This document shows, in pieces, positions 8,929 through 62,882 of a DNA stretch of 64,000 bases. Numbering within the stretch: the first letter of the stretch is position 1; each line of letters begins with the position of its first letter. A program made the position numbers and the translations under genes. The stretch comes from Dokdonia sp. 4H-3-7-5 (GTDB lineage: Bacteria; Bacteroidota; Bacteroidia; Flavobacteriales; Flavobacteriaceae). The stretch spans positions 3,132,001 to 3,196,000 of the forward strand of contig NC_015496.1 of assembly GCF_000212355.1 (NCBI RefSeq), given 5' to 3'. The notes below the pieces were generated by a model that saw only the letters and a list, made by a program, of their open reading frames with translations, was not told where the DNA came from and did not search any database.

Positions 8929-10059
8929 TTAAGAATAAAAATTTCTAATAGTAAGAGCTATGAACTCAACATCCTCCTTTGTAAGTGCAGCATACATTGG
9001 TAATGTTATCTCATTTGCACAAACATACTCGGTTACTGGAAGCTTTGTCGTGTATTCCTTATAAATAGAGAATTTATGAATGGGTGGATAATGATTACTG
9101 GTTTGTATTCCTTGAGCGTGAAGATGCGCTCTTAATGCATCTCGATTTGCCTCTGTGCTGTCTTTTAATACTATAGGCATTATATAGTTAGATACATACT
9201 CTGTGTTATCACAAAAAGGTACAATAACCTGATCTATAGATTGCAACGCATCAATATAATATTTGCGCACATTCTGCCTTCTATCAAGATCAGCCTTTAA
9301 TTTTTTCATTTGCACAACACCTATAGATGCTCTAATATCATCTAATCTAAAATTATGCCCTAGCTCTACAATATCATACGAAGTGGCGTGCCCTTTTGCC
9401 CTTTGGTAAGACATTGTGGTCATACCATGAGATCTTAATAGCCTACATCTAGCAGCGATTTCATCATCATTAGTTATAATCATTCCTCCTTCACCAGTAC
9501 TTATATTTTTATTTGAAAAAAAACTATATGTACCCATACTACCTATAGTGCCTAATGTCTTGCCTTTATACTGTGACAAGGGAGCGTGACAAGTATCTTC
9601 TATAACTTTAAGGTTATGCTTTCGCGAAAGCGCCATTATACCATCCATATCTGCAGGAAAACCAGCCATATGAACAACCACTATTGCTTTGGTTTTTGAG
9701 GTTATTCTTTTTTCAATTTCAGCTGGGGTAATATTCATGTTATCCAACCCTCCAATATCACAAAAAACTGGTGTCGCACCAACATAACGGATACAGTTCA
9801 CAGATGCTGCAAATGTGAGGGATGGACAGATTACTTCATCACCCTGTTTTATATTATTAACTATCATTGCTAGATGCAAACCATCGGTGCAATTTGAAAC
9901 GCTTATTGCATGCTTAACATCAAACATTTCTATAAATTGTTCCTCAAGCTCCTGACATTTTGGCCCAGTGGAAATCCATTTAGAACGTATCGTATCTGTT
10001 ACTGCTTGTATTTCCTCTTCTCCAAAATTGAGTTGAAACAATGGAATCTTATAATCCAT
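8929..10059 (-). CDS. DegT/DnrJ/EryC1/StrS sugar aminotransferase
   Basis: This 376-residue PLP enzyme of the sugar aminotransferase family has FLxMF-like substrate loops, the D-T-C-H-A segment (residues 155-159) and the PLP lysine K184 in FFSNKNISTGEGG. It transfers an amino group from glutamate to a keto sugar nucleotide, most likely the 4-keto product of the dehydratase encoded at 12556-13743. It carries one copy of the genome palindrome GCTTTCGCGAAAGC at 9618-9631, the only exact copy in the first 21 kb. The length is normal. Confidence 0.93.
   Translation of the reverse strand: MDYKIPLFQLNFGEEEIQAVTDTIRSKWISTGPKCQELEEQFIEMFDVKHAISVSNCTDGLHLAMIVNNIKQGDEVICPSLTFAASVNCIRYVGATPVFCDIGGLDNMNITPAEIEKRITSKTKAIVVVHMAGFPADMDGIMALSRKHNLKVIEDTCHAPLSQYKGKTLGTIGSMGTYSFFSNKNISTGEGGMIITNDDEIAARCRLLRSHGMTTMSYQRAKGHATSYDIVELGHNFRLDDIRASIGVVQMKKLKADLDRRQNVRKYYIDALQSIDQVIVPFCDNTEYVSNYIMPIVLKDSTEANRDALRAHLHAQGIQTSNHYPPIHKFSIYKEYTTKLPVTEYVCANEITLPMYAALTKEDVEFIALTIRNFYS
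9618..9631. repeat. Palindrome GCTTTCGCGAAAGC, inside aminotransferase gene
   Basis: Exact 14-bp copy of the iterated palindrome. In this minus-strand gene it is read as part of LSRK (residues 144-147). Confidence 0.95.
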
Positions 10060-10061
10060 AA

Positions 10062-10985
10062 CTAATTTTTTATTTGATTTAATTTAATCTTTACTTTTTG
10101 CAAAAGAGAAAGCTTATCAATATGGTTTTTGAAATGGTGCTTGTCATAAGCCTTATTCCATTTTAAACTTACAGGATGGTTTGTAAGTTTAAATTTTTTA
10201 TCTGATGGATAAAAATGTTCCAAAGGCTTAGAGCTAATTTTATCATCACGGGAACTATTCTCACCAATATTAGATGCAAGATTTACTCTAGGAACTATAG
10301 ATCGTAATTTATTCTGAAATCTAAAAAATCCAAATTGATGATCCCAAGTGTTCTCTGAGTTATTTTTAAGCTGAGTAGCCAGCTTACTAAAGCTTTTCTT
10401 AAAATATCTCTTTTCACTATTACTTGCAAATTCCATTTCAGAAAGATTATTTTCTAAGGTATTGTAAATTTGTGGTACTGCTACATCAAATTTCTCCCAT
10501 ACACGTTTCCAAGTAGCCCAACCCCATATATGACCATAATTAGTAAGTAAATAATCACTAGTTGACGGAGTAGGAGTATAATTATTTGCACTAATCATTC
10601 CTATTCGTTCATCATCTTTATACCGTTCTAATAGCACTTCTGCAAAGTTAAAAAACTCTGGAACAGCTATTATGTCATCTTCTATTATTATAACTCTGTC
10701 ATCCTTTTCAAGCACCCACGATATAGCTCCAGAAACGCCATTTTTACACCCTACGTTATATTCCCTTATTAAGTAGTGAGCTTCACATTCCCAAGAAATA
10801 TTCTTAGTAATTTTAATAACTTCTTCTACCAATATTCTTTCTTCTGGTCGGCCTGATCGAGGTCCATCGATTGCTACATACAACTTTTTCGGTCGTACCA
10901 ATTCTAATGTTTCCATCACTTTAATTGTAGTATCAGGTCGATTAAAAGCTATTAGCAATACGGGAGTTTCACTATTTTTTTTCAT
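10062..10985 (-). CDS. GT-A type glycosyltransferase
   Basis: This 307-residue protein starts with PVLLIAFNRPDTTIKVMETL, as in GT-A nucleotide-sugar enzymes, and has an acidic metal-binding motif in RVIIIEDDIIAVPEFF. A GHIWGWATWKRVW segment follows, common in bacterial transferases annotated as family-2-like or hemolytic-type. It has no membrane segment. It probably adds one sugar of the repeat unit. It lies 2 bp from the aminotransferase gene and 18 bp from the flippase gene. The donor sugar is unknown. Confidence 0.8.
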   Translation of the reverse strand: MKKNSETPVLLIAFNRPDTTIKVMETLELVRPKKLYVAIDGPRSGRPEERILVEEVIKITKNISWECEAHYLIREYNVGCKNGVSGAISWVLEKDDRVIIIEDDIIAVPEFFNFAEVLLERYKDDERIGMISANNYTPTPSTSDYLLTNYGHIWGWATWKRVWEKFDVAVPQIYNTLENNLSEMEFASNSEKRYFKKSFSKLATQLKNNSENTWDHQFGFFRFQNKLRSIVPRVNLASNIGENSSRDDKISSKPLEHFYPSDKKFKLTNHPVSLKWNKAYDKHHFKNHIDKLSLLQKVKIKLNQIKN

Positions 10986-11003
10986 ACTAAAATTAAATAT
11001 TTA

Positions 11004-12533
11004 CTACTTATTTTTAAACCTAGCTAAAAATGTGTTGGCTATTTGTATAAATTTATCCTTTTCATTTTTATTAATACCGTATTTCCAGAACATTACAGTT
11101 AAAAGGGATCCAAAAGAGAATGAGACGACTAATAATCTAAAAAACCCGCTTTTCATATTAAAGTAGAACAGTAGTGCGATTATAAGAGATATAGATATTG
11201 GAATAATAACAGGGATGATAGATTCAAGAATGTAATTATATGGCTTTATTCCAACTATTTTCTTTCCAAAGTATAATCTATTGAAAAAAACTAGACCGGA
11301 AATAGATAATCCGACGATATATATAGAAGATGGACTATAACCAAAGCTAAATAATAAATATGCGGTTGGAATATTTAACAAAAAAAGAAACGTTTCAGTT
11401 ATTTGAAATTTTCTAATATCTCCAATTGCCCGAATTGCATCAGTTATTGGAAATGTGAATTTTTCTAAAAGTAATGTAAGAACCGTGATCTGGAAAAAAA
11501 TTACTACAAAATCAGGAATCTCTACTAACCATAATTCAAGTAATAATGGTGCTTCAATAAATACAGGAACTGCAAATAGACCAAATAAAAATATTGAAAA
11601 TTTTGCACTTACTTTAGTTATATAAATCATACGCTCTCTGTCTCCACTACCCTCGCTTTTTACCATCTGTGGATTTATTGCCATTGTCATACTCGTGGAT
11701 ACCATGTTTAAAGCTGTGCTAGCCGACTTTGAAATACCTTCTGCTGCATTAATTCTTACACCAAAAAAGGAATTGAGTAAAATACTCCTTATCTGAATTA
11801 CAGAAACAGCGGCAAGTGATCCAAACAAATTCCACCCTGTAAAATTAAGAATAGATTTCATTAATTTTTTATCAAAAGCAGCGTAAATTACTTTACTCTC
11901 CTTATAGTTTACTCTACTATAAACCTGTTTAATTACTCTAAGAATAATTTGAACTCCAAGCATTAAAACACCATACTGAATTAATAATTCAGTATCGCTA
12001 TAGAGTAAATAAATAGCTATTAATAATTTTAGAATATCACCTACAATATCAACTAACGATAAAACAATTAAATTTTCGTGAGCATTTATTAAGGCATCAT
12101 AAGGCACTGATATAACTGTAATTAAAGTAGTGAGCACCATACATCCAAAAATCACCTTAGCATCAAAAACTTTATCTAGGGGTATATTCAAAAAATTTTC
12201 AAATAGTATATATCCGCCAAATAACATCAAAATAACAACAACAATACCTACAAAATAATGTAAAAACAGCGTAGTATTAAATGTAGCTATTAGAAGTTTT
12301 TCATCATTAGAACCTAAACTATGAGCAATAAAGCGCATGGATGTATTAGACATATTAGAATTTAAAATCCCTAACATTGCTACTATACCAGCTACAAGCA
12401 TATAAATACCGTAATCAGTTTCACCAAGAGCTTCTAAAACAAATCGTGTAGTTATCAATCCAATAACTAATCCCAAAATTAGTCTTAGGTAAAGTATTCC
12501 TGTATTGTATACTACTTTATTTGCGTTCTTCAT
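11004..12533 (-). CDS. Wzx-like lipid-linked oligosaccharide flippase
   Basis: This 509-residue membrane protein has about 12-14 hydrophobic segments. The start is typical of the MOP/MATE polysaccharide transporter superfamily: YNTGILYLRLILGLVIGLITTRFVLEALGETDYGIY in outline, with TRxxLxALGExDYGI as the key residues. It would flip undecaprenyl-linked repeat units from the cytoplasm to the periplasm for the EpsG/Wzy-like polymerase. It is flanked by a glycosyltransferase gene and a dehydratase gene in the same operon. The superfamily is clear; substrate specificity is not. Confidence 0.88.
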   Translation of the reverse strand: MKNANKVVYNTGILYLRLILGLVIGLITTRFVLEALGETDYGIYMLVAGIVAMLGILNSNMSNTSMRFIAHSLGSNDEKLLIATFNTTLFLHYFVGIVVVILMLFGGYILFENFLNIPLDKVFDAKVIFGCMVLTTLITVISVPYDALINAHENLIVLSLVDIVGDILKLLIAIYLLYSDTELLIQYGVLMLGVQIILRVIKQVYSRVNYKESKVIYAAFDKKLMKSILNFTGWNLFGSLAAVSVIQIRSILLNSFFGVRINAAEGISKSASTALNMVSTSMTMAINPQMVKSEGSGDRERMIYITKVSAKFSIFLFGLFAVPVFIEAPLLLELWLVEIPDFVVIFFQITVLTLLLEKFTFPITDAIRAIGDIRKFQITETFLFLLNIPTAYLLFSFGYSPSSIYIVGLSISGLVFFNRLYFGKKIVGIKPYNYILESIIPVIIPISISLIIALLFYFNMKSGFFRLLVVSFSFGSLLTVMFWKYGINKNEKDKFIQIANTFLARFKNK

Positions 12534-21015: not shown

Positions 21016-21819
21016 TTAGTGTGCTACGAAGTTAGGACTAAAAAGTGATTCTTTATTGTAGAATAGTCTCTTACTTGTATGCTCAACATAAACAGCTCCT
21101 CCTACTCCTTCACAAATAGCGTCTCCTGCTGCAGTATCCCATTCCATACAAGGCCCAAAACGAGGATACACATCTGCAGTTCCTTCTGCAACAAGACAAA
21201 ACTTGTACGCACTACCAGATGGTACTACTTCTGTATTTTTACCTGCATTCTGCAAGTCATTTACAAATTCCTGGGTTTTTAAATTTAAATGTGAGCGACT
21301 AGTGACTACTTTGACATGATTAAGGTTATTGTAGTTTTTAAGCTTTCGCGAAAGCGGGATTACCTTATTTATCAACGTTTCCCAAGAAATATCATCTTTT
21401 GGACCAACCAACTTATAACTAGCTCCATCATCAGATCCACCAGCATATATAGTTTTATGCACAGGGACATAAATCACACCAAAAACAGGTCTGTGACCTA
21501 CCACTAAAGCGATATTTACCGTAAACTCGCCGTTGCGTTTTACAAACTCCTTAGTACCATCTAGAGGATCTACCATCCAAAATTGATCCCATTTTGTACG
21601 AATTTCAAAAGGTATTTCACTTCCTTCCTCACTCAATATTGGAATCCCAGTTTGCTCGAGCTGAGTCACAATGGCTTCATGAGCTTTAAGATCTGCCTCA
21701 GTGAGTGGAAAATTATCTGATTTATGTGTAACATCAAAGTCACGACGATAAACATCCATAATAACTTCCCCTGCTTTTATTGCAGCTTGAATTGCGATAG
21801 TTTTCCAAGATTTATTCAT
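21016..21819 (-). CDS. cysQ: 3'(2'),5'-bisphosphate nucleotidase CysQ-like
   Basis: This 267-residue Mg-dependent phosphatase of the inositol-monophosphatase superfamily has LSEEGSE, the metal-binding WMVDPLDGTKEF motif and the later MEWDTAAGDAI motif. The family removes a phosphate from PAP/PAPS. It lies between the UDP-glucuronate epimerase gene and rfbD, overlapping rfbD by 4 bp, which suggests co-expression with surface-polymer genes, perhaps to clear PAP made by sulfotransferases. No sulfotransferase gene is visible here. It carries one exact genome palindrome (21342-21355), read as LSRK. Confidence 0.9.
   Translation of the reverse strand: MNKSWKTIAIQAAIKAGEVIMDVYRRDFDVTHKSDNFPLTEADLKAHEAIVTQLEQTGIPILSEEGSEIPFEIRTKWDQFWMVDPLDGTKEFVKRNGEFTVNIALVVGHRPVFGVIYVPVHKTIYAGGSDDGASYKLVGPKDDISWETLINKVIPLSRKLKNYNNLNHVKVVTSRSHLNLKTQEFVNDLQNAGKNTEVVPSGSAYKFCLVAEGTADVYPRFGPCMEWDTAAGDAICEGVGGAVYVEHTSKRLFYNKESLFSPNFVAH
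21342..21355. repeat. Palindrome GCTTTCGCGAAAGC, inside cysQ
   Basis: Exact 14-bp copy. The gene reads it as LSRK within PLSRKLKNY. Confidence 0.95.
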
Positions 21820-22709
21820 TTTAGTCTTTTGAGCATTTTTTGTAGCGAACTACTCCATTCTGGAGTATCAACTTTAAATTGCTTTTCAATCTTATGCGTG
21901 TCTAGCACACTATTTTTAGGTCGTTTTGTTTTGGTAGGAAATAAATCGCTTGTAACTGGAGTTATGAGCACATCGATTTGTGCGTGCTCAAAGATAGCTT
22001 TCGCAAAATCATACCAAGTAATACTTCCCTTATTAGAAAAATGATATACACCAAAACTATCTTCTTTCAATTCTCGTGCAACAGTTAAAATAGTATCTGC
22101 AAGGTCATTTGCCCAGGTAGGGCAACCCAACTGGTCATTGACAACAGAGAGCTGTCCCCTCTCTTCCCCTAATCGCAGCATTGTTTTTACAAAATTATGA
22201 CCGTACACACTGTAAACCCATGACGTACGAATAATAGCGTATTTTGTTATATTGGATGCCTCAATTAATTGTTCTCCGCCTAGTTTTGACGCACCATAAA
22301 CTGTTTGCGGATTAGGCTTATCACTTTCTACATATGCAGTGGATTTATCTCCATCAAAAACATAATCCGTAGATATATGAATTAGTGCACATTTTCGCTT
22401 TTTACACTCCTCGGCGAGATAACCCACAGCTGCTTCATTTATAAGGAAAGCTTGATCTTTATCGTCTTCGGCAGCATCTACGGCTGTATATGCAGCAGTA
22501 TTAATAACAACATCTGGTTGATGTTTATCTAGTACTATTGAGATATTATCACGAGAAGTTATATCAAGGTCCTTTCTAGAAAGAAATATATACTCAAAAT
22601 CAGCATGATGCTTAGACTGCTCTAGTAACGCCATCCCTAGCTGACCAAGAGCTCCAGTGACTACAATCTTTTTTAAAGTGACCTCTCTATTACTCGCAGT
22701 AACATTCAT
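21816..22709 (-). CDS. rfbD: dTDP-4-dehydrorhamnose reductase
   Basis: This roughly 297-residue SDR-like reductase performs the last step of dTDP-L-rhamnose synthesis. It shows VVTGALGQLGMALLE, STDYVFDGDKSTAY, Y-G-A-S-K and RTSWVYSVYGHNFVKTML, all typical. I chose the ATG at 22709, which overlaps the rfbC stop by one base (TGATG); a TTG one codon upstream is less likely. A near-copy of the genome palindrome (about 21957) encodes DFAKAIFE here. Confidence 0.93.
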   Translation of the reverse strand: MNVTASNREVTLKKIVVTGALGQLGMALLEQSKHHADFEYIFLSRKDLDITSRDNISIVLDKHQPDVVINTAAYTAVDAAEDDKDQAFLINEAAVGYLAEECKKRKCALIHISTDYVFDGDKSTAYVESDKPNPQTVYGASKLGGEQLIEASNITKYAIIRTSWVYSVYGHNFVKTMLRLGEERGQLSVVNDQLGCPTWANDLADTILTVARELKEDSFGVYHFSNKGSITWYDFAKAIFEHAQIDVLITPVTSDLFPTKTKRPKNSVLDTHKIEKQFKVDTPEWSSSLQKMLKRLK

Positions 22710-23263: not shown

Positions 23264-24117
23264 TATAGTGTATTTATATATTGTGCATAAGCACCTTTAC
23301 CATACCTTGATGCACTTGCCTTAAGTGCTTCGTATGATATCCAATTCATTTTGTAAGCAATTTCTTCAAGACATGCTATCATTGTACTTTGATTGCGCTG
23401 TATCACTCTTATAAATTCTGTTGCATCATCTAGCGCGTCTACTGTACCTGTATCAAACCAAGACATACCTCTACTCATGATACCTACTGAAAGTTTTTTC
23501 TTCTCGAGATATTCTTGATTAATTGTAGTAATTTCTAACTCTCCGCGTTCTGACGGTTTTATTTTCTTTGCAATCCCCACTACCTCGTTATCATAGAAAT
23601 AAATTCCAGGAACTGCGTAATTAGATTTTGGTGTACTAGGCTTTTCCTCAATGCTTGTTGCTTTCATTTCCTTATCAAAAGCCACAACACCAAATCGTTC
23701 TGGATCTCTAACAGGATAAGCAAAAATAGCCGCACCATCTACATCATTCTTACTTTGCAATAACTGACTAAGACCATTACCGTAAAAGATGTTATCTCCT
23801 AATACTAAGGCAACTTTATCAGTCCCTATAAACGATTCGCCTATTATGAATGCATCTGCAAGCCCGTTAGGTGATTCTTGCACTTCATAAGAAAACAAAC
23901 AACCTAAAGAGCTACCATCACCAAGTAAACGCTCAAAAAGGTGTCTATCTTCAGGTGTAGTTATTATCAATATCTCTCTTATACCCGCAAGCATTAATAC
24001 AGAGATAGGATAGAAAATCATAGGTTTATCATACACGGGTAACAACTGCTTACTTACCGCTATGGTAAGTGGTGATAAACGCGTGCCCGAGCCGCCTGCA
24101 AGTACAATACCTTTCAT
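23263..24117 (-). CDS. rfbA: Glucose-1-phosphate thymidylyltransferase
   Basis: This 284-residue RmlA has [16 protein letters not shown] at the start, [27 protein letters not shown], and [17 protein letters not shown] near the end. It makes dTDP-glucose from dTTP and glucose-1-phosphate, opening the rhamnose pathway. Its start base is shared with the rfbB stop. Length and motifs are standard. Confidence 0.96.
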
Positions 24118-25160
24118 TATGAGTACATTTTCTTATAATATTCTTGGTAAGCTCCAGAAGTTACATTTTTGAGCCACTGATTATTTTCAAGATACCAATT
24201 TACAGTAAGTTCTAAACCTTCCTCAAAAGTAACAGATGGTTTCCAACCAAGTTCTTTTTCAATTTTTGTTGCATCTATTGCATACCTCTTATCATGACCC
24301 GGACGGTCTTTCGCGTAAGTTATAAGTGATTTTGAAGAATCCCGCTTTCGCGAAAGCTTATCATCCATTATATCACACAATAGCTTTACTAAGTCAATAT
24401 TTTTCCACTCATTAAAACCGCCAATGTTATAGGTTTCCTTTAATATACCTTTTTCAAATATAAGTGCTATTGCAGCCGCATGATCCTTCACAAATAACCA
24501 ATCTCTCGTATAATTACCATCACCATAAACAGGCAAAGATGTACCCTCGATAATATTATTGATAAATAAAGGAATTAATTTTTCTGGAAATTGGTTAGGA
24601 CCATAATTATTAGAGCAATTGCTAATAATATATGGCAAACCATAGGTCTCCCCATAAGCTCTTACAAAATGATCTGAACTTGCCTTCGAGGCTGCATAGG
24701 GCGAATTTGGATCATAAGAAGTAGTTTCAGTGAAGAGTCCGCTTTCACCTAGTGAACCGTAGACTTCGTCTGTACTGATATGGTAGAAAAGTTTTGAAGA
24801 GTAATCTTCTTTCCAAATACTTCTTGCTGCGTTAAGAAGATTAAGTGTACCAATAATATTAGTCTGTACAAATGCTAAAGGATCTTTTATACTTCTATCA
24901 ACATGTGATTCTGCCGCTAGATGGATTATTTTATCAAATTGGTAACTAGAAAACAGATTCATCAAAAAAGGGGCATCATTGATATCCCCTTTTATAAATG
25001 TATAATTGCTAGACGCTTCTACATCGGAAAGGTTCTCTAGGTTTCCAGCATAAGTAAGAATATCAAGATTGTAAATATGACTTTTAGGAAAAACTTCTAA
25101 AAATAGTCTCACCACGTGAGACCCTATAAAACCTGCTCCACCTGTAATAAGAATGTTCAT
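24117..25160 (-). CDS. rfbB: dTDP-glucose 4,6-dehydratase
   Basis: This 347-residue RmlB has [40 protein letters not shown] and [15 protein letters not shown]. It turns dTDP-glucose into the 4-keto-6-deoxy form. Residues around 270 contain LSRKRDS, encoded by an exact genome palindrome (24344-24357). A degenerate copy lies 38 bp away at 24306-24319. It is joined to the dehydrogenase gene at 25160 by one shared base. Confidence 0.96.
24344..24357. repeat. Palindrome GCTTTCGCGAAAGC, inside rfbB
   Basis: Exact 14-bp copy read as LSRK, in a loop region where RmlB enzymes vary. A copy with three mismatches lies at 24306-24319. Confidence 0.95.
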
Positions 25161-26455: not shown

Positions 26456-26469
26456 GCTTTCGCGAAAGC
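26456..26469. repeat. Palindrome GCTTTCGCGAAAGC, between wbpP-like and wbpO-like genes
   Basis: Exact 14-bp copy in the short intergenic gap inside the operon. Confidence 0.95.
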
Positions 26470-46354: not shown

Positions 46355-46368
46355 GCTTTCGCGAAAGC
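46355..46368. repeat. Palindrome GCTTTCGCGAAAGC, after rluF
   Basis: Exact 14-bp copy within an 18-bp palindrome, 13 nt after the rluF stop and before the terminator. Confidence 0.95.
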
Positions 46369-46391: not shown

Positions 46392-46425
46392 AAAAAGGCA
46401 AAGAATATATATTCTTTGCCTTTTT
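46392..46425. terminator. Bidirectional terminator between rluF and the small-protein gene
   Basis: Perfect 15-bp stem (46392-46406 with 46411-46425), 4-nt loop, with A and T runs on both sides. It serves rluF (+) and the 59-residue gene (-). Confidence 0.92.
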
Positions 46426-48113: not shown

Positions 48114-49019
48114 ATGAAAGTAGTTGTTTTCTGGTTATTCTATCCCCTTTTATGGTTACTCTCTGTACTTCCTTTTAGAGCTTTATACATCGTTTCAGAT
48201 TGTTGTTACTTTCTTGTTTATCATGTCATAGGTTACCGTAAGAAAACGGTGAGATATAACTTAAGACTTACTTTCCCAAACAAGTCTAATGATGAGCTTA
48301 AGACTATTGAAAAAGAGTTTTATAGCCATTTTTGCGATATGTTTCTAGAGATGATCAAGTCTATGAATATTAAGAAAGAAGATCTCTTAGAACGTTACCA
48401 GTTTACAAACAAGGAACTCATTACTCAGTATGATAAAGATGGTTTGAGCACTTGCCTGATGATGGGACATTATGCTAGTTATGAGTGGATTTTTGCCCTA
48501 CAGCTTTCCATGGAAAATCCTGGTTATGCTGTATATAAAAAGATCAAGCATAAACAATTTGATGATCTTATAAGAAAGATACGTGGCCGCTGGAATACCT
48601 TTATGATTGACTCAAAAGAAACTGTGCGCTATATACAACGACTAGAGAGTGACAATAAAATAGGTACTTATGGCTTTGTTGCAGATCAAACACCTCGGTA
48701 TCATAAAGCACATTTCTGGACAGACTTTTTAGGTCATGAAGTACCTTTTTTTACTGGTGTTGAACGTATTGCCAAAGAATTTTCTCTACCCGTGATATAT
48801 TTTGGGACAGAAAAAATGAGCAGAGGTCATTATAGAGGAACATTTGAGTTACTAACTCCTAATGCTTCAGCAACTGGTGAAGGTGAGGTTACTAACGCTT
48901 TCGCGAAAGCGCTAGAAAAACAAATTCTTGCACGTCCAGAATACTACTTATGGACACATAAGCGTTTTAAACTTCTAGGTAAAAAGGAAGAAATACTTTC
49001 AAAAATAAAGAAGGCCTAA
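48114..49019 (+). CDS. LpxL/HtrB-like lipid A acyltransferase
   Basis: This 301-residue protein has an N-terminal membrane anchor (VVVFWLFYPLLWLLSVLPFR), the H-x4-E motif in MMGHYASYEW (near residue 120), and the later VADQTPRYHKAHFWTDFLG, where LpxL proteins have DQ motifs. It adds a secondary acyl chain to lipid A or a related lipid. It carries the exact palindrome at 48897-48910, read as NAFAKALEK near the end. Confidence 0.9.
   Translation: MKVVVFWLFYPLLWLLSVLPFRALYIVSDCCYFLVYHVIGYRKKTVRYNLRLTFPNKSNDELKTIEKEFYSHFCDMFLEMIKSMNIKKEDLLERYQFTNKELITQYDKDGLSTCLMMGHYASYEWIFALQLSMENPGYAVYKKIKHKQFDDLIRKIRGRWNTFMIDSKETVRYIQRLESDNKIGTYGFVADQTPRYHKAHFWTDFLGHEVPFFTGVERIAKEFSLPVIYFGTEKMSRGHYRGTFELLTPNASATGEGEVTNAFAKALEKQILARPEYYLWTHKRFKLLGKKEEILSKIKKA
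48897..48910. repeat. Palindrome GCTTTCGCGAAAGC, inside the LpxL-like gene
   Basis: Exact 14-bp copy in the frame that gives AFAKA. Confidence 0.95.
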
Positions 49020-49024: not shown

Positions 49025-50530
49025 TTAAAACTCAAACCACTGGTCTATCGCTTCGCTTCTACTCTTTGACGTAGCAGCGTCATCCTTGTGTAAATACTCA
49101 TTTGAGTGCGTCTGATAACGATAATCTTCTGACCATTCTTTATGATTTAATGCAAGTTCTTTAATGGCACTACAAGCATATAAAACCTCTTCGTTAGTGA
49201 GTGTAGGATGTATAGACATTCTAATCCAACCTGGTTTGTGAATTAAATTACCAGCGTCGATCTCGCAGGTAAGTGAATTAGATGTTTTTTGATCTACGTT
49301 GAGTAAATAATGACCGTAAGTACCTGCACAACTACATCCACCGCGCGTTTGAACTCCAAAACGATCATTAAGCATTTTTACAGCAAGGTTAAAGTGTAAA
49401 TCACTTATGTAAAATGAGATTACTCCCAACCTGTCTTTGTGATTACTAGCCAAAATATTAATATCCGGTACTTCATTGAGTTCTTTCCAGATAATATCTA
49501 TAAGCTCGTGCTCACGGCTCACAATATTATCAACGCCCATCTCTTCTTTGAGCTTTATAGACAGAGCTGTACGTATGGTTTGTAAAAAACCTGGTGTACC
49601 GCCATCTTCACGTTCTTCTATGTTGTCTATATACTTGTGTTCTCCCCAAGGATTTGTCCAAGAAACAGTACCTCCGCCTGGGTTATCTGGTACGACGTTT
49701 TTATATAATCCTTTATTAAAAATCAATACACCTGAAGATCCAGGACCTCCTAAAAATTTGTGTGGCGAAAAGAAAATCGCATCTAATCGTTCTTCGGGAT
49801 TTGCAGGATGCATATCTATATTAACATAGGGCGCGCTGCAAGCAAAATCTACAAAACACAGTCCGCCATGCGCGTGCATTAATCTTGCTACATCATGATA
49901 CGGAGTTTGGATACCTGTTACATTGCTACACGCTGTTATAGAAGCAATTTTAAACGGATGATTCTCATATTTAAGAAGTTCGTTTTCAAACATTTCTATA
50001 CAAAAAAGTCCATCCTCCTTTGCAGGCACTACTACAACCTTAGCTGTAGTTTCTAACCACGTAGTTTGGTTACTATGATGCTCCATATGAGAGATAAAAA
50101 CAATAGGTTTTATCTCCTCTGGTACGGTTACAAACTTTTTTATATTCTCAGGAACTTTTAATCCTAGTATTCGTTGGAATTTATTGATCATTCCCGTCAT
50201 TCCGTTACCTCCTACAATGAGAACATCATCTTGATTTGCATGAACATGCTCTTTAATGATATCCTTGGCTTTGTGGTAACTCATGGTCATCGCAGTACCA
50301 GAGACAGTAGTCTCCGTATGTGTATTTGCCACATAGGGACCAAAATCACGTGTCATTTTATCTTCTATAGGTCCATACAGTCTCCCAGAGGCTGTCCAAT
50401 CTGTATATAGTAATCGCTGGGTGCCATAAGGTGAAGTAAAGAATTGATCTACGCCTACAATGTTTTCGCGAAAGCGTGTAAAGTAATTCTCTAGTTTACC
50501 GCTAGACTTAATAGGATTTAATGTTTTCAT
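49025..50530 (-). CDS. Class V aminotransferase (cysteine desulfurase-like)
   Basis: The ATG at 50530 (MKTLNPIKSSGKLENYF) is preferred to a TTG two codons upstream. The roughly 501-residue PLP protein has NGMTGMINKFQRILG, FVDFACSAPY, the PLP lysine in FFSPHKFLGGPGSSGVL, and a late RGGCSCAGTYGHYLL, where cysteine desulfurases place their Cys. The extra length sets it apart from SufS/IscS; the substrate is unclear. It is convergent with the LpxL-like gene. A near-copy of the palindrome (50462-50475) encodes RFREN. Confidence 0.87.
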   Translation of the reverse strand: MKTLNPIKSSGKLENYFTRFRENIVGVDQFFTSPYGTQRLLYTDWTASGRLYGPIEDKMTRDFGPYVANTHTETTVSGTAMTMSYHKAKDIIKEHVHANQDDVLIVGGNGMTGMINKFQRILGLKVPENIKKFVTVPEEIKPIVFISHMEHHSNQTTWLETTAKVVVVPAKEDGLFCIEMFENELLKYENHPFKIASITACSNVTGIQTPYHDVARLMHAHGGLCFVDFACSAPYVNIDMHPANPEERLDAIFFSPHKFLGGPGSSGVLIFNKGLYKNVVPDNPGGGTVSWTNPWGEHKYIDNIEEREDGGTPGFLQTIRTALSIKLKEEMGVDNIVSREHELIDIIWKELNEVPDINILASNHKDRLGVISFYISDLHFNLAVKMLNDRFGVQTRGGCSCAGTYGHYLLNVDQKTSNSLTCEIDAGNLIHKPGWIRMSIHPTLTNEEVLYACSAIKELALNHKEWSEDYRYQTHSNEYLHKDDAATSKSRSEAIDQWFEF

Positions 50531-52008: not shown

Positions 52009-52116
52009 AAATTATGATATTCTGAGATTAGGTGTTAGTTGATTGATGACGCAAAAGTAAAGAATTGAACTCGATAGCACTTATGACGCAATTCAAATTA
52101 TGTTTAAGTTTTTTTT

Positions 52117-52130
52117 GCTTTCGCGAAAGC
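52117..52130. repeat. Palindrome GCTTTCGCGAAAGC, glmM/AcpH divergent region
   Basis: Exact 14-bp copy in the 208-bp divergent intergenic region. Confidence 0.95.
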
Positions 52131-52216
52131 GTAACTATCGCAACATTGATTTTTTGAGTAATATTTGCCCCATTACCATTGATAATACAACTTGCAACGA
52201 CTATCTTGTTCTCTAT

Positions 52217-52801
52217 ATGAACTTCCTTGCACACATTTACCTTACAGACGGATTACCACAAGAGACCATAGGCAACTTTATGGCAGATGGTATAAAAGGT
52301 AAAAAGTACCTCAAATACTCATATGATATCCAGAAAGGGATTTTAATACACCGCTGGATAGATAGTTATACAGACAGTCACCCTATTGTAAAACAAAGCA
52401 CAAAGCGGCTTCACGAGAAATATGGACACTACTCTGGTGTGATAGTAGATATTCTATACGATCATTTTCTTGCCAAAAACTGGAAGAACTATCACGACAC
52501 GCCTTTAGACATATACATCGCAGATTTTTATCAATTACTTGAGGATAATCACCATCTGCTCACGAGCCGAATTCAGAAAATGATGATCCCTATGATGAAA
52601 CAAAACTGGTTACTCAGTTATGCGACTATGGAAGGAATAGGCACAGTGCTCTATAATATGAATATACGCACAAAGCGCCGCGTAGCGATGGATAAGGCTA
52701 TAGAAGACCTAGCAGAACATTATGAAGCCTTTGAAGATGAGTTTACACGGTTTTTTGAGGAGCTGCAGGCATTTGTTGCATTAAAACTTAAAGAACTATA
52801 A
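52217..52801 (+). CDS. AcpH-like acyl carrier protein phosphodiesterase
   Basis: The ATG at 52217 (MNFLAHIYLTDGLPQETIGNF) matches the family start; an open extension upstream runs through the palindrome and is rejected. The 194-residue protein has HRWIDSYTDSHPIVK near residue 50, ILYDHFLAKNW and MEGIGTVLYNM, all typical of ACP phosphodiesterase (DUF479). It would remove the 4'-phosphopantetheine arm from ACP, though the true role in this group is uncertain. Confidence 0.88.
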   Translation: MNFLAHIYLTDGLPQETIGNFMADGIKGKKYLKYSYDIQKGILIHRWIDSYTDSHPIVKQSTKRLHEKYGHYSGVIVDILYDHFLAKNWKNYHDTPLDIYIADFYQLLEDNHHLLTSRIQKMMIPMMKQNWLLSYATMEGIGTVLYNMNIRTKRRVAMDKAIEDLAEHYEAFEDEFTRFFEELQAFVALKLKEL

Positions 52802-52834: not shown

Positions 52835-54526
52835 ATGAAAAAACTATTCTTACTGCTCTCCCCACTTTTATTTATCACTTGCAAAACAGAAAGACCCGCT
52901 CCTGAGCCCGTACATGGAGTAATTGCACAAAAAGCTATGGTAGTTTCTGCTCGAGAAGAAGCTTCACGCATAGGATCAGAAATTATGGAGCAAGGCGGTA
53001 ATGTTTTTGACGCCATGATTGCAACAGATATGGCGCTCAACGTGGCTTATCCTTTTGCAGGAAGTCTAGGTGGTGGTGGTTTTCTAGTATATCGTACTAA
53101 GGATGGCGAGATAGGCGCGCTGGATTATAGAGAGATGGCTCCCGCAGCCGCTACGCACGATATGTATCTTGATCAAGATGGTAATGTGATTCCTAACTTG
53201 AGCACAGAGGGAAGCCTTGCTGTGGGTGTTCCTGGAGGTCTTGCGGGTATGTTTGCCGTTTATGAGAAGTTTGGCTCTTTACCTATGTCCCAGATTTTAC
53301 AGCCAGTAATAGATCTTGCCCGCAATGGTTATGTGGTTACAGAAAATCAGGCAAAACGATTTGATGCGTTGCGCGAGAAATTTATCGAGCTTAATGGAGA
53401 TAGTATTTTATATGCAAACGCTTTCGCGAAAATGTCTACCCTCAAAAATGAAGCCCTTGCAAAAACACTAGAGCGCATTGTTGTAAACGGTAAAGATGAA
53501 TTTTACAAAGGAGAGACTGGACAGAAGTTAGTAAACTATCTACAATCAAAAGGTGGCATCATCACAATGGAAGATCTTGCTACTTACGAAGCAAAATGGC
53601 GCACTCCAGTAACTTTTGAATATGATAACCTAAAGATTATATCCATGAGCCCTCCTAGTTCTGGTGGTGTTTGCTTATCTGAAATCATGCAGATGATTGA
53701 ACCTTACGACATCTCACAATATGGACATAATACAGTAGAAAGCATCCAGCTACTTACCGAAGCCGAGCGTCGTGCCTATGCAGATCGTAGCTTTTATCTA
53801 GGTGATCCCGACTTTGTAGAAATTCCGCTAGAAACATTACTCTCTGACGAGTATGCAAAAAATAGAATGGATACTTTTTCTTGGGATACCGCAACAAAAT
53901 CAAGTGATATGAGCCACGGGAAGTTACCAGGTTATGAAAGTATGGAAACCACACACTACAGTGCGATAGATCAGTACGGTAATGCAATCGCCGTGACAAC
54001 AACGCTTAACGGTGCTTATGGATCAAAATTATATGTAGGCGAGATAGGTTTCTTTTTAAATAATGAAATGGACGATTTTTCTAGCAAACCTGGAGTGCCT
54101 AATATGTTTGGCCTCATAGGTGCCGAAGCTAATAAGATTGAACCAGGGAAGCGCATGCTATCAAGTATGACTCCTACGCTAGTAGAAAAAGATGGGGAGT
54201 TCTGGATGACCGTAGGAACTCCTGGAGGCTCTACGATTATAACGTCTGTACTGCAAACGATACTTAACGTACATGAATATGGAATGACTATGCAAGAAGC
54301 GGTTAATGCACCACGCTTCCACCACCAGTGGTTGCCAGATGTTGTATTATTTGAACCAAATAGTTTCGATGCTGAAACTATAAAAAGATTACAAGAAAAG
54401 GGATATAATACTAATGAAGAGCAATCTCCAGTTATTGGAAAAGTGGACGGTATTTTAGTGCTTCCTGAAGGCACCTTAGAAGGTGGCGCAGATAGACGTG
54501 GAGATGATACTGCGGTAGGGTTCTAA
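52835..54526 (+). CDS. ggt: Gamma-glutamyltransferase, lipoprotein
   Basis: This 563-residue Ntn hydrolase has a lipoprotein signal (LLFITC lipobox, Cys at residue 16), so it is anchored to a membrane rather than free in the periplasm. The large subunit has GGGGFLVYR and DYREMAP. The small subunit starts at the autocatalytic Thr373 in ETTHYSAIDQYGNAIAVTTT and has GKRMLSSMTPTLV and GTPGGSTI. It hydrolyses or transfers the gamma-glutamyl group of glutathione and similar peptides. A near-copy of the palindrome (53420-53432) encodes NAFAKM. Confidence 0.94.
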   Translation: MKKLFLLLSPLLFITCKTERPAPEPVHGVIAQKAMVVSAREEASRIGSEIMEQGGNVFDAMIATDMALNVAYPFAGSLGGGGFLVYRTKDGEIGALDYREMAPAAATHDMYLDQDGNVIPNLSTEGSLAVGVPGGLAGMFAVYEKFGSLPMSQILQPVIDLARNGYVVTENQAKRFDALREKFIELNGDSILYANAFAKMSTLKNEALAKTLERIVVNGKDEFYKGETGQKLVNYLQSKGGIITMEDLATYEAKWRTPVTFEYDNLKIISMSPPSSGGVCLSEIMQMIEPYDISQYGHNTVESIQLLTEAERRAYADRSFYLGDPDFVEIPLETLLSDEYAKNRMDTFSWDTATKSSDMSHGKLPGYESMETTHYSAIDQYGNAIAVTTTLNGAYGSKLYVGEIGFFLNNEMDDFSSKPGVPNMFGLIGAEANKIEPGKRMLSSMTPTLVEKDGEFWMTVGTPGGSTIITSVLQTILNVHEYGMTMQEAVNAPRFHHQWLPDVVLFEPNSFDAETIKRLQEKGYNTNEEQSPVIGKVDGILVLPEGTLEGGADRRGDDTAVGF

Positions 54527-58452: not shown

Positions 58453-58456
58453 TATA

Positions 58457-58513: not shown

Positions 58514-59761
58514 CTAGGATGGATTCACCACCTCATCAATACTACTTGCTAGATACATATGAGCTCCAGCAGAGTTTTTATTAAGAACATTGGTCATTAA
58601 GCAAACGATGTACTTCTTTCCATTAGGTTGCTCTACAATGATTACAGAGTTCATATAGTTATATACATTTCCGGCATAATCCTTACATCCTGGGTCTTTA
58701 CTGCGATCACATTTGTAAAATGATCCAGATTTAAAAAACACAGCGGCATCATCAAGTCTATTAGATTGTGCATAACGTATCCTTCTATCTGTCATATATA
58801 GTAATCGCTTCATCTCGAGTGAGCTTTCTTCATCTATAACGTTTCCTTGTTCTAAGGCTACCAGAAACTTCATGAGTCCTTTAGGAGTTCCTATACTTCC
58901 ACCTTCTCTTCCTACATACTTTCCAGCAGGTCTTGTAAACATCCCTCCTAGTCTCCAGTCATCTTCTGTTATCCCTAGCTCTCTTAGGGGCTGATTCACA
59001 ACTCGGTTTGCTTGGCTGGTAAGGGAGTCTCTGTCTGTCTCTACAAAGTAATTTTCAGACTCTTCTTCTGTTAAGTCGGCATAATCTCTTCCAAAGGCGT
59101 CTAGCAACATCGTTTCTCTATATAATACACTCGCAGCTCCATTATTACTCACAGACACCATATGATCTGCCCACTCATATAATGAGAATTCATCACTTGC
59201 CACTACTTGACGTTTTGTAAGCTTATCTTTTTCAATATCATAAATAGGAATCGTATGATGATCACCTGTACCCCAATAACGTGCTTTTACACGCTTATTA
59301 CACATAAGTCCTGTACGTAGTGCAAAATCATCTGGATAGGTCTCTGCTAGCTCATTAAAAAAACCGTTTAGTACGGCAATTTTACCCACACTTCCTGGCT
59401 GGTAACCAGCGTTCTCTCTGTGGGCTGCATATTTCAAATTTTCTGAATCGCTCATATCAAGAACTGCAAGGGAGTAGTTTCCGCCTGGAGTGATTCTTGC
59501 AATAGCGCGCGCAAATTCTGGATCTTCAACGAGAAGTGCACCAAGAGAATCTTGCTTTCGCGAAAGCAAATTCAACTTAATATCATTTAATTTTAAATAA
59601 GCTCCATTAGGAATACGCTTATTAGTAATGCTATCTTTCTCCATTTTTTGAAGACGATACAATCTTTTGATTCCAGTGCTGTCATATCCATCTATTGGAT
59701 AAATCATCGTGGCAACAAGCGTGGATAATGCAATAAATGTAAATGTGATAAATGTCTTCAT
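58514..59761 (-). CDS. Secreted serine hydrolase, class A beta-lactamase-like, co-transcribed with dikinase-like gene
   Basis: The 415-residue protein has an N-terminal signal or membrane anchor (FITFTFIALSTLVATMIY). The motifs S124-V-G-K127, S205-N-N and K344-S-G match the class A beta-lactamase/serine hydrolase layout. A long insert between the SNN and KSG motifs (residues 215-285) is unusual. Two further segments, DPGCKDYAG and VYNYMNSVIIVEQP, are specific to this subgroup. Its start base is shared with the stop of the upstream dikinase-like gene, so the two products probably work together outside the cytoplasm. An exact palindrome at 59554-59567 encodes LSRK. Confidence 0.82.
   Translation of the reverse strand: MKTFITFTFIALSTLVATMIYPIDGYDSTGIKRLYRLQKMEKDSITNKRIPNGAYLKLNDIKLNLLSRKQDSLGALLVEDPEFARAIARITPGGNYSLAVLDMSDSENLKYAAHRENAGYQPGSVGKIAVLNGFFNELAETYPDDFALRTGLMCNKRVKARYWGTGDHHTIPIYDIEKDKLTKRQVVASDEFSLYEWADHMVSVSNNGAASVLYRETMLLDAFGRDYADLTEEESENYFVETDRDSLTSQANRVVNQPLRELGITEDDWRLGGMFTRPAGKYVGREGGSIGTPKGLMKFLVALEQGNVIDEESSLEMKRLLYMTDRRIRYAQSNRLDDAAVFFKSGSFYKCDRSKDPGCKDYAGNVYNYMNSVIIVEQPNGKKYIVCLMTNVLNKNSAGAHMYLASSIDEVVNPS
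59554..59567. repeat. Palindrome GCTTTCGCGAAAGC, inside serine hydrolase gene
   Basis: Exact 14-bp copy, read as LSRK (residues 67-69 and neighbours). Confidence 0.95.
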
Positions 59762-62679
59762 TAGTTTATTGGTGCGTCTAAGGTTATTAAAAAGTCTTCA
59801 TTAATTACTGGCGATATAGATTCTAAATATTCAGAAGTCTTTGCCGTTTTATTCTCTACAAAAGGTCTAATCTGGAATAACCACAATTTGTCATTCTCAA
59901 ATCCAAGCTCAACGTCATAGGCTCCTTCATAAGTAGATCCTGTCATTTCTGGAAGGCGCGTTCTTATAGACTGAGCAATTGCACGTATATCATTTATGTT
60001 TTTCTCGTTGAGTATTTGCTTATCAAAGGTGGCTATGTTCTTCTTAACACCTCCCGTTGCCGGTAAGCGTATATAATCTGCTTGACGTGCAGGAGAAAGT
60101 AACCTGCTGCCTGTTGCTATTACAAGTCTAGTTTCGGCGGCTTGGCCATCTACTGCTCCTCCTGCACCACGGCTAAAGGCGATTGTAAGATCCTCATCTG
60201 TCCCTTGATTAATTCCTTTGGTAATCATCACTCCACTATAATCCACATCTACAGATGGTATAATTAAAATGGATGGAAATACATTTTCTGGATTACTCAA
60301 ATATTGCTGGCGCCACTTAAAGCTACGCTCCGTGTATGGAGAAGCCCAAACGTCTTTAATTCCTTTCAAGATTTTATCTTCATCAAGTATATTAAAGAGG
60401 GTCAAGTTCAATCCTGCGCCTGTAAACTCTTCAAGGTCTTCCATATTTGTATCACTACGTAAAAACACGGGTGTTTTACCAATAGGTGATTTAAACACTT
60501 TTTGGAAATCTGCTCGCAAGCTATTCACAAATGAGGGTTTCAGTGTCATTAAATTAATCGCATCACGCAACCTCTTCAACTCTTCCAGTTGGAAGGTCTC
60601 TATCTCTTTTGACGATGCGCCAGAGGTTTTCATGTCTTCCGCTTTCGCGAAAGCGTTATTTAAAAACTCCCAGTAAGAACCATCATAGCTTGGCATCTTT
60701 TGATCCATATGATCTTTAAATATTCCGAAAGGAATCACAAGACCTTCTACCACCTGCTCTGGAAACATCTTTTTGAGCTGACCAAGATTTGCTGCCTTAG
60801 GACCTACAAGTTTTCCAGATGCACTTGCATCAAGGTCTCGCATATTTATAATATCCTTTTTATCAAGTTGAATTTTTTCTACAGGTACCGTTACTTGGCT
60901 AGTAGAACGTTGTTTCTTTGTAAATAACTCACGTTCCTCATCTGTAATATCATCTTCGCCTTTTATGATAACACTTCCTTTATTTGAAACTGCATAAAAC
61001 ACGTTCTTACCGCTATACTTACTCAAATCCTGAAGGTTTTCTTGAGATAAGGCCGCATTAGGAATACCTAAATTTCTAGCAAGTAATTGCACGTGAGAAA
61101 CAAGATTACCTTCTGACACAGTCATAATACCAGCAACGGGTTTAAGATCTGATGGCGGTTTTTCAAAAACGTAAATCTTCTCCGTATCTACCTCCACTCC
61201 TTCTGGAGATCCTTCTATAACGACAAGCTCACCATAAGCATAACCTGGGTTTAATCCTCGTACAGAAGATTGTCCATCTATATCCATCACCTTGTTTTCA
61301 AGTCCTGAATGCTTTGCTATAAAAGCTCCCAACGTACTTACACTCTCTCCTAAGTCAAGAGCAACAGACGAGCGTACACGATCATCTATAAAACCATACG
61401 CTTTAGGCTCAAACTGCGCATAAATATCTACAACTTCTTGATAGTTTGCTTTTACCTGAGAGGCGCTCCACTCTACAAGTCCCCTTGATGTGGCAAGAAA
61501 ATCGTTTAGTTGTGCTACGCTTTTATCGTTATGATAACTATCGGCAATTAGATAAGGCTCTACCGCTGCCCACTCATTCATTTCTATAAGTCCTGTTCCC
61601 GTTGCGGCATAACCCAACGTCTGAATCTTATATAGTAAACTCTTGAGCGTCTCTGGTTTCCACTCTTGTGTTTTTATAAGAAGTATATCTTCAAGTTCGT
61701 TAGAGAGATCAAGCATAGTAAGCTTATCACTTCCTCTATCTAAAGTTTCTATCTCTTGGCGGATTAAACACAAAATATCTGCAATTTCTGGCACTAATAT
61801 TTCAGGAGAGGCGTCACGCTCGCTGTTTGTAAGAAAGCTTGTAATACGTTCCGTGAGCTCATTTTTTACAGATACTTGATTTACTTGCGCTTGTAACTCC
61901 TTAAAATTAATGGGTGCATAAAAAGCAGCCATTGTTTTTTCTAAAGCATCAAACTGAGATTTTAATTTATCAGAAAGATTGCCTTTATGCTTTGCTCTAA
62001 ATTCTTGTACCATCTGGATATCACTCACGCTAGGTTTACCATGGATCTTAATACGGGCATCCATAAACTTAGGATAATCTTCGGCAAGGATTTTTGATTC
62101 GCTACGCATACGTTGTGCAATGTTACTATCACCATCGTGTGGTATATCTCGCAATGTTTGACGCAGTAAATAGTAATTCTGTCTTAGTCTCGTATCGCTA
62201 CGCAGTAGCCACTCATAAAAGTCGATACCCCATGCTTCTTCATCTTCAGATTGTACAGCTCCTCTATAAAATTGAGATTTGCGCTGCACCCATCCATCAT
62301 CTATACTCCCTAAGTAGCGAGCAAGTTGATATTGTTTAATGCGGCTATGGTCGTTTGCCACATCCCAAAAAAGTTCTTTGTCTGTATTTGCAAGAATGTC
62401 TGCCACATATAAATGATGCTTTTTACCTAGTGTGATAAGATCATCACTGTAACTAGCATGTTGTACTCCACCACCTATGTCATCTGGACAAGGGTCACGT
62501 GCTTCACGCTGTGTACCATCTTTACAAAACCATTCTATCTTTTTGTAAGGACCACGAGCATTTTCTTTAAATGTTTCAATACTCTTTTTTATAGATGCCA
62601 CAGGAAGGTCCTGCGCATACACTGTACTTGCTATACAAATAGTAAGGCTTGTAAGCAATAACTGGGTAATTTTCAACAT
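59761..62679 (-). CDS. Secreted dikinase-like protein (PEP/pyruvate-binding and phosphohistidine domains)
   Basis: The protein has 972 residues with a signal peptide (MLKITQLLLTSLTICIASTVYAQ). Residues 25-430 are mostly helical and unrecognised. A phosphohistidine swivel domain follows with VSEGNLVSHVQLLARNLGIP (H529). A PPDK_N-type ATP-binding domain comes last: GPKAANLG (626-633), LRSDTNMEDLEEFTGAGLN (740-758) and LWLFQIRPFVE near the end. The swivel-then-ATP order is that of glucan water dikinase; PEP synthase has the reverse order plus a PEP barrel, absent here. Export is odd, because ATP is scarce in the periplasm. An exact palindrome (60641-60654) encodes NAFAKAED. Confidence 0.85.
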   Translation of the reverse strand: MLKITQLLLTSLTICIASTVYAQDLPVASIKKSIETFKENARGPYKKIEWFCKDGTQREARDPCPDDIGGGVQHASYSDDLITLGKKHHLYVADILANTDKELFWDVANDHSRIKQYQLARYLGSIDDGWVQRKSQFYRGAVQSEDEEAWGIDFYEWLLRSDTRLRQNYYLLRQTLRDIPHDGDSNIAQRMRSESKILAEDYPKFMDARIKIHGKPSVSDIQMVQEFRAKHKGNLSDKLKSQFDALEKTMAAFYAPINFKELQAQVNQVSVKNELTERITSFLTNSERDASPEILVPEIADILCLIRQEIETLDRGSDKLTMLDLSNELEDILLIKTQEWKPETLKSLLYKIQTLGYAATGTGLIEMNEWAAVEPYLIADSYHNDKSVAQLNDFLATSRGLVEWSASQVKANYQEVVDIYAQFEPKAYGFIDDRVRSSVALDLGESVSTLGAFIAKHSGLENKVMDIDGQSSVRGLNPGYAYGELVVIEGSPEGVEVDTEKIYVFEKPPSDLKPVAGIMTVSEGNLVSHVQLLARNLGIPNAALSQENLQDLSKYSGKNVFYAVSNKGSVIIKGEDDITDEERELFTKKQRSTSQVTVPVEKIQLDKKDIINMRDLDASASGKLVGPKAANLGQLKKMFPEQVVEGLVIPFGIFKDHMDQKMPSYDGSYWEFLNNAFAKAEDMKTSGASSKEIETFQLEELKRLRDAINLMTLKPSFVNSLRADFQKVFKSPIGKTPVFLRSDTNMEDLEEFTGAGLNLTLFNILDEDKILKGIKDVWASPYTERSFKWRQQYLSNPENVFPSILIIPSVDVDYSGVMITKGINQGTDEDLTIAFSRGAGGAVDGQAAETRLVIATGSRLLSPARQADYIRLPATGGVKKNIATFDKQILNEKNINDIRAIAQSIRTRLPEMTGSTYEGAYDVELGFENDKLWLFQIRPFVENKTAKTSEYLESISPVINEDFLITLDAPIN
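60641..60654. repeat. Palindrome GCTTTCGCGAAAGC, inside dikinase-like gene
   Basis: Exact 14-bp copy, read as AFAKA (residues 676-680). Confidence 0.95.
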
Positions 62680-62701
62680 GTAGTAATGTTTGATTTGATT
62701 G

Positions 62702-62727
62702 TTTGGACTAATATAGGTTAGTCCAAA
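62702..62727. promoter_or_regulatory. Inverted repeat upstream of the dikinase-hydrolase operon
   Basis: TTTGGACTAA (62702-62711) and TTAGTCCAAA (62718-62727) are exact reverse complements with a 6-nt spacer, 23 bp upstream of the ATG at 62679. It may be an operator or a leader hairpin. There is no T run, so a terminator is unlikely. Confidence 0.5.
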
Positions 62728-62868
62728 TTTGATTGACTAGAGATTAACGTAAATCTAAGTGATAATTAACTTAATAATAACGATTACAGCCTACAGCCAG
62801 CCTATTTGGTAGCCATATACCTACGATAAAATTTATAGGCTTGAATCACCAATGATATGAAGTGTTAC

Positions 62869-62882
62869 GCTTTCGCGAAAGC
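62869..62882. repeat. Palindrome GCTTTCGCGAAAGC, downstream of the histidine kinase gene
   Basis: Exact 14-bp copy within a 20-bp palindrome (62866-62885), 9 nt after the kinase stop codon. Confidence 0.95.

Follow-up and report, generated by a model that had tools for sequence, protein, structure and literature searches.

Words that are iterated throughout a genome mark basic DNA machinery such as that of uptake, repair or segregation. The DNA uptake sequences (DUS) of Neisseria and the uptake signal sequences (USS) of Haemophilus and other Pasteurellaceae spread by biased uptake; DUS are evenly spaced, in excess between genes, and differ between genera as dialects. The sites of the parS, Noc and matS type are long palindromes through which homodimeric proteins organise the chromosome. 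Chi, a recombination signal, is short and directional, and occurs about once in 4-5 kb. The highly iterated palindrome HIP1 (GCGATCGC) of cyanobacteria is still without an agreed function. The word described here, GCTTTCGCGAAAGC, is an exact palindrome of 14 bp that recurs in a 64,000-nucleotide stretch of a Dokdonia chromosome (NC_015496.1, positions 3,132,001-3,196,000; ‘the window’), part of a genome assembled as a single contig of 3,389,993 bp (G000). It looks like an addressing signal for a putative DNA-handling protein.

The window holds 14 exact copies, all where the preliminary description of this DNA had placed them, and the genome holds 757 by exact count (∼0.22 per kb), while the reversed word, as a control, has 0 copies. 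In 564 kb of the genome, with ∼5 kb masked, there are 133 copies against 0.0014 expected from a third-order Markov model, and every one of 20 sampled 20-kb stretches round the chromosome has copies. Allowing up to three mismatches, the window gives 22 matches, compared with a mean of 1.65 and a largest value of 6 in 100 dinucleotide shuffles. The iteration seen in the preliminary description is confirmed; a count near the Markov expectation and confinement to the window are both excluded. The density is like that of Chi, from which the word differs in being long and symmetric. Such huge genome-wide over-representation is also the mark of HIP1 and the alternate HIPs, which PMC4390886 presents as palindromes iterated genome-wide, limited to clades and without settled function, and among named kinds of word HIP1 is the closest in behaviour. 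The word departs from them in length (14 bp, with a 12-bp minimum, against 5-8 bp for the HIPs named there) and in density (the HIPs reach 1-2 per kb in that account). Among the papers listed in literature searches, as judged by titles, abstracts and term counts, none contains this 14-letter word or deals with an iterated palindrome of flavobacteria.

The core and flanks of the site were drawn from 464 kb of G000, comprising 20 evenly spaced 20-kb stretches and the window. The sequence TTCGCGAA lies within TTTCGCGAAA in 149 of 149 cases. All 149 cores are flanked by GC on at least one side, 113 of them on both sides, which makes the 12-mer GCTTTCGCGAAA the minimal unit. The bases beyond the 14 bp show a weaker preference, again symmetric, running outwards as G (77%), T (61%), A (69%) and A (63%), with G at only 3-5% in outward flank positions 4 to 7; the extended consensus is approximately GTTACGCTTTCGCGAAAGCGTAAC, and the flanks in the other two genera that carry the word are similar, not identical. 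The mismatch spectrum is sharp: 144 sites are perfect, 20 have one mismatch, 38 have two and 32 have three. Single mismatches fall mainly in the outer two bases (15 of 20), and nearly all of the two-mismatch class has lost one outer GC (34 of 38). Control palindromes at three mismatches give a mean of 12.6 and a largest count of 37, against the 32 of the word. The spectrum is nearly all-or-none, with hardly any tail of decayed copies, and together with the symmetric specificity of 12-14 bp it suits a dimer for which one half may be incomplete.

The copies are under strong purifying selection. Three relatives of G000 were compared: G271 (92.6% identity over 150 kb), G269 (85.7%) and G267, which is D. 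donghaensis DSW-1 (79.5%). Against G271, 39 exact copies lie in the compared stretch, two of them unalignable; 35 of the remaining 37 are identical, compared with 43.5% of random 14-mers (binomial P 5e-11), and they are kept alike inside genes (16/17) and between them (19/20). Positions of the 14 bp are 96-100% identical, compared with 82-96% for the 38 positions that flank them on each side. Half-type copies, in which only one side is complete, keep their 12-mer in 15 of 16 cases. In G269, nine of ten exact copies and all three half-type 12-mers are kept, where random 14-mers give 22-30%; in G267 the figures are four of seven and only one of four, where random 14-mers give 8-18%.

New copies arise in place. 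At six places only one of G000 and G271 has the word: in four of these the difference amounts to one or two substituted bases or a gap of one base, and the other two are poorly aligned. Among more distant orthologues (21 gene pairs, some uninformative with the site beyond the aligned part), the copies stand in place without an insertion of word length, and in some pairs the word changes several residues while the flanks are kept. Within Dokdonia, one copy is common to the D. sinensis orthologue at 68% protein identity. Aligned with the half-type copy at 53420, but shifted by one base, is a full copy in the orthologue of Leeuwenhoekiella marinoflava. A Dokdonia gene (L312 11542-12639) and its counterparts in two Nonlabens (L203 and L201) each have the word in the same variable loop, offset by about one base, which suggests that these copies were gained independently in a tolerant spot. 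High copy number and symmetry are also what a short mobile or REP-like repeat spread by insertion, or a plain compositional bias, might produce. The alignments, apart from the few uninformative pairs, show no word-length insertion, the copies share only the 14 bp and, weakly, a preference for a few flanking bases, and the Markov expectation is a minute fraction of the count, so that we give this explanation almost no credence.

The copies are placed in tolerant sequence. Simple open reading frames (ORFs; ATG starts, at least 60 aa) in the 564 kb cover 500 kb and hold 76 copies, compared with 57 in the 62 kb between them, a 6-fold difference in density; an earlier, cruder ORF set gave 70 genic and 43 intergenic copies in 464 kb. 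Convergent gaps are richest (13.65 copies per 10 kb), followed by tandem (9.26) and divergent gaps (6.26). Of the 32 copies in tandem gaps, 15 have their centre no more than 26 bp past the upstream stop codon, against 5.7 in simulation. The preliminary description had the word tied to no gene family, strand or terminator, which has to be amended in that it is about six times denser between ORFs and favours the stretch just past stop codons. Among genic copies the frame reading AFAKA is the commonest (42 of 76). In D. donghaensis (L392 4764-7544) the word falls in an apparent signal peptide (SAFAKA), a position tolerant of a copy in frame.

The intergenic enrichment, highest in convergent gaps and just past stop codons, would also suit a global transcription regulator with the word as its operator, or a signal at the 3' ends of transcripts. 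Yet 76 of the 133 copies are inside ORFs, the divergent gaps, where promoters lie, are the poorest intergenic class, and in tandem gaps the 26 bp ahead of the next start have fewer copies than simulated (2 against 5.7, P 0.04). The word is not an intrinsic terminator by itself, because the flank composition has no T-run; the many copies in ORFs point the same way, folding not having been computed. The three closest pairs of copies examined (separations of 136, 435 and 197 bp) have unrelated genes as neighbours, and the idea of an autoregulatory cluster was dropped as giving no lead. An operator or 3' signal also gives no reason to expect the even spacing described below, and we hold it to be improbable.

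The copies are spread along the chromosome more evenly than chance. The spacing of the first 100 copies of G000 has a coefficient of variation (CV) of 0.715, compared with 0.986 simulated, and gaps shorter than 1 kb number 4 against 19.7; the first 100 copies of D. donghaensis give a CV of 0.736 against 0.986. With exact and half-type copies taken together in 184 kb, the CV is 0.638 against 0.975. Counts in the twenty 20-kb stretches are only mildly under-dispersed (P 0.105). Taken together, the symmetry and length of the word, its nearly all-or-none spectrum, the purifying selection and the even spacing point to a chromosome-wide role for a DNA-binding protein that acts as a dimer. We infer that such a dimer binds the word and acts within the cell; that the word is the site of a homodimeric, sequence-specific protein working along the whole chromosome has, in our estimate, an even chance of being right. 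The putative dimer would serve, for example, in folding and compaction, in segregation, or in repair and recombination. It would require a site roughly every 3-4 kb, and selection would maintain at least that number. Its minimal site would be the 12-mer, and its preferred site the full 14-bp palindrome with the weaker extension.

High copy number is found in three genera only, among those sampled. All 18 Dokdonia genomes searched have 369-905 copies, and the two lowest are 78% and 85% complete. In a survey of 249 genomes of the family, five have 408-857 copies and the other 244 have 0-17; the five comprise a pair of Dokdonia, a pair from a Nonlabens-like genus and a single genome of a third genus, the last with 408 copies and 46% GC in its sample. 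Across the order, where 296 genomes were counted, only Dokdonia and the Nonlabens-like genus stand out, all others having 16 copies or fewer. Genome G242 matches named Nonlabens loci at 79, 83 and 79% over the three longest matches and at 68% over a fourth, and Dokdonia loci at 72-74%; G010 matches Nonlabens loci at 78 and 67% and Dokdonia loci at 72%. A scan of named genomes gave at least 111 stretches with the word; of those listed, 45 come from Dokdonia and 29 from Nonlabens, 74 in all. Leeuwenhoekiella marinoflava has at least one such stretch among the named-genome matches listed, as does BBFL7, which we take to be a Nonlabens, with four loci. On a tree of ParB with 19 rows, three changes are needed to account for the carriers (2-3 in bootstraps), of which well-supported branches force only one, and both one and several origins of the word are compatible with it. 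No unusually similar gene of use for linking the third genus to the other two was found in the sampled sequence.

The main rival to the dimeric chromosomal protein is DNA uptake, which predicts most of the same patterns: competent Dokdonia and Nonlabens would prefer DNA that bears the word, and biased uptake followed by recombination would spread it by molecular drive. This reading accommodates the even spacing, the excess between genes, the gain of copies by substitution, the genus-level distribution and the near absence of the word elsewhere, and the word resembles DUS and USS in its even spacing, its intergenic excess, its gain in place and its genus-level dialect. The preliminary description, which had likened the behaviour of the word to that of HIP1 or uptake words while noting its different sequence, is upheld by the genome-wide iteration and the distribution by genus. 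Known uptake readers act through type IV pili. Full-length matches over cut-off to PF00437, the assembly ATPase of type IV pili and type II secretion, occur in six of 15 word genomes (G268, G272, G274, G278, G282 and G242) and in none of five other genomes tested, a contrast in favour of uptake. PF00437 is not over cut-off in G000 and eight other word genomes of the 15, which sets the word apart from DUS and USS and makes a reader of the ComP or type IV pilus kind unlikely in G000; such a reader is thus not common to the carriers as judged by PF00437, ComP itself not having been searched. The symmetry is a further difference, and we know of no uptake word that is a palindrome. Natural transformation that prefers self DNA has a precedent in the flavobacterial genus Riemerella, in the account of PMC7965970. 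On balance we regard uptake as possible and rather unlikely.

The preliminary description had also proposed that the word may be a binding site for a protein of nucleoid, replication, repair or restriction type, and suggested looking for a co-occurring DNA-binding protein or methyltransferase. Protein binding is plausible; a partner of the restriction or methylation type is not borne out for the two families tested. An orphan methyltransferase might read the inner palindrome (TCGCGA or CGCG), with methyl-directed repair or protection enriching the longer word, and the core of the word is both CpG-rich and palindromic. PF00145 (m5C methyltransferase) has no match in eight of 14 word genomes, G000 included, and matches in six of 14; PF01555 is over cut-off in two of 14, with weak matches below cut-off in G000 and G269. 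Unlike the HIPs, the carriers thus share no methyltransferase of PF00145 or PF01555, D12/Dam-type, type I and type IIG enzymes not having been searched, and for this reason the word is not classed as a methylation word of the HIP1 type. To our knowledge, no contiguous methyltransferase site has the information content of 12-14 bp plus flanks. HIP1 and the alternate HIPs do track their cognate methyltransferases, as PMC4390886 describes them, and a methylation word of that kind is very improbable here. In G269 two m5C methyltransferase matches stand side by side (G269:C1:2994546-2996633), each in a 700-aa open frame.

The word shares with parS, Noc-type and matS-type sites the form of a long palindrome suited to a homodimeric chromosome-organising protein. 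It differs from them in number, with hundreds of copies along the sampled chromosome instead of a few, or of dozens in one macrodomain, and from parS also in the spacing of the TTTC/GAAA arms. Copies in all 20 sampled stretches, together with a ParB lacking residues specific to the word genomes, do not match a ParB-parS system with its few sites near the origin. Rare copies in other genera occur clustered within tens of kb, and a reading of these clusters as parS was rejected: nearly all copies examined are inside ORFs, mostly long ones, and in the one island examined by Pfam, that of genome G076 described below, many of these ORFs are metal-efflux genes. Second ParB genes, several of ∼600 aa, lie near some of the clusters and are taken as the ParBs of conjugative elements.

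Several observations weigh against a dedicated dimer that acts along the whole chromosome. No cognate binding protein was found among those examined (ParB, PF00145, PF01555 and PF00437). The five word genomes tested have a single ParB each, and among 19 aligned ParBs no column is specific to word genomes, so that an altered ParB specificity was discarded. The sites are mostly at different places across genera, with no identical codon position in the orthologue pairs shown. A simple requirement of one site per length would predict more copies in larger genomes, yet in Dokdonia the number does not rise with genome size (757-905 at 3.3-3.4 Mb, 740-903 at 5.5 Mb). In smaller samples the evenness of spacing is less distinct: the 39 exact copies in 184 kb have a CV of 0.85 that is not significant (P 0.22), yet no gap shorter than 1 kb against 7.3 simulated, and for the 14 copies in the window the CV is not significant (P 0.17) and the short gaps are too few (P 0.04). 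Finally, four phage-bearing contigs from Dokdonia assemblies, found regardless of the word, contain 2 GC-flanked cores in 69 kb against ∼22 expected, a count that includes contig G270:C76 (46% GC), maybe a contaminant; the search found the portal PF04860 in one of 17 genomes and the terminase phrog_38 in three of 21. The site is therefore not needed on every replicon found in these assemblies.

This depletion is what DNA outside an uptake economy would show, as are the related Nonlabens phages P12024S and P12024L (L348 and L349), which have 0 copies of the word, of TTCGCGAA or of TCGCGA in 35.7 kb each; these two are taken as lytic because no integrase is annotated. Other mobile DNA does carry the word. 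Among 18 viral records chosen for holding it, some are temperate by gene content (transposase, integrase, portal, terminase) and carry up to eight 12-mer units in 37 kb. Two pairs of phages each have one site in common, at ∼66% identity, and one other that is not shared. That phages match the density of their hosts as a general rule was rejected, the word-selected contigs being biased and the four unselected ones mostly empty. An island of ∼62 kb (G076:C3:32331-94750; L394-L397) has 14 exact copies and three further TTTCGCGAAA cores, and its genes include, by Pfam, RND efflux, a P-type metal ATPase and a multicopper oxidase. A pair of copies exactly 933 bp apart occurs in this island and in four other genera, in an ORF of ∼409 aa in L059, L060, L062 and L065. 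The region is probably a mobile island from a word genus, and at its Dokdonia-like density, in genera with otherwise hardly any copies, the word is likely a tag of the donor of this copper and heavy-metal island. Host-like density on this island and on some of the word-selected phages, which sets the word apart from DUS and USS, is hard to explain by uptake of chromosomal DNA. It favours the dimeric protein, in that some long-resident mobile DNA carries the word. We tentatively entertain, below even odds, a new chromosome-organising system, in which a dedicated dimer would read about a thousand evenly spaced palindromes of 12-14 bp in Dokdonia, Nonlabens and the third genus, and in which resident islands and some temperate phages would evolve sites to pass as ‘self’.

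In the window itself, seven exact copies, which have no strand assigned, fall inside ORFs or in their early part. On the minus strand these are 9618-9631, in a DegT/DnrJ aminotransferase (ORF 8929-10059); 21342-21355, in a member of the inositol monophosphatase family (21016-21819); 24344-24357, in an NAD-dependent epimerase/dehydratase with GDP_Man_Dehyd as its best Pfam match (24117-25160); 59554-59567, in ORF 58514-59761; and 60641-60654, in an ORF with an ATP-binding domain of the pyruvate phosphate dikinase type (59761-62679). On the plus strand, the copy at 40977-40990 lies early in a DUF4159 ORF (40932-41579), and that at 48897-48910 is inside a lipid A acyltransferase (48114-49019) and is not at the same place in G271, G269 or G267. 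The copy at 52117-52130 is at the very start of a plus-strand ACP phosphodiesterase ORF (52100-52801) and may lie upstream of its true start codon. The copy at 26456-26469 occupies a 37-bp gap between two minus-strand ORFs, just past the stop of ORF 26478-27494; those at 37148-37161 and 45160-45173 are intergenic; and that at 62869-62882 is just past the stop of a minus-strand ORF ending at 62891. The preliminary description saw symmetry extending to 18-22 bp, and it does reach 22 bp as a perfect palindrome around the copy at 37148 (37144-37165) and 20 bp around that at 62869 (62866-62885). The copy at 33931-33944 is 15 bp past the stop of plus-strand ORF 33355-33915 and differs at two bases in G271; it sits between this ORF and the RNase P RNA gene (RF00010; 34021-34342, minus strand). 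A Flavo-1 RNA (RF01705) is at 30274-30354 on the plus strand. The copy at 46355-46368 is 12 bp past the stop of plus-strand ORF 45560-46342, and shortly beyond it is a perfect overlapping palindrome, AAAAAGGCAAAGAATATATATTCTTTGCCTTTTT (46392-46425), which looks like a two-way terminator.

The four near-copies that had been listed are real half-type copies, and all keep their 12-mer in G271. Three are on the plus strand, with GCTTTCGCGAAA followed by AC at 32688-32701, by AA at 43959-43972 and by AT at 53420-53433; the fourth, GT followed by TTTCGCGAAAGC at 50462-50475, has its intact 12-mer on the minus strand. Those at 32688 and 50462 have one mismatch and the other two have two. Of the degenerate copies named earlier, the first is really at 21997-22010 and not at 21957; it has two mismatches and a broken core, and is probably not a functional copy. 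The others are at 24307-24320 (one base from the 24306 given) and 42184-42197, each with three mismatches and near chance level; all three are on the plus strand. A further three-mismatch match, absent from the earlier list, is at 1080.

The word is longer and cleaner than HIP1, and the purifying selection on it can be measured; it lacks the methyltransferase partners looked for, and its carriers are culturable marine bacteria. With a word that is long, clean, selected and present in culturable bacteria, the question of its reader is directly testable by DNA-affinity capture. The word is also a sharp sequence tag for DNA that probably left the word genera, as with the copper and metal-resistance island found in other flavobacteria at donor-like density.

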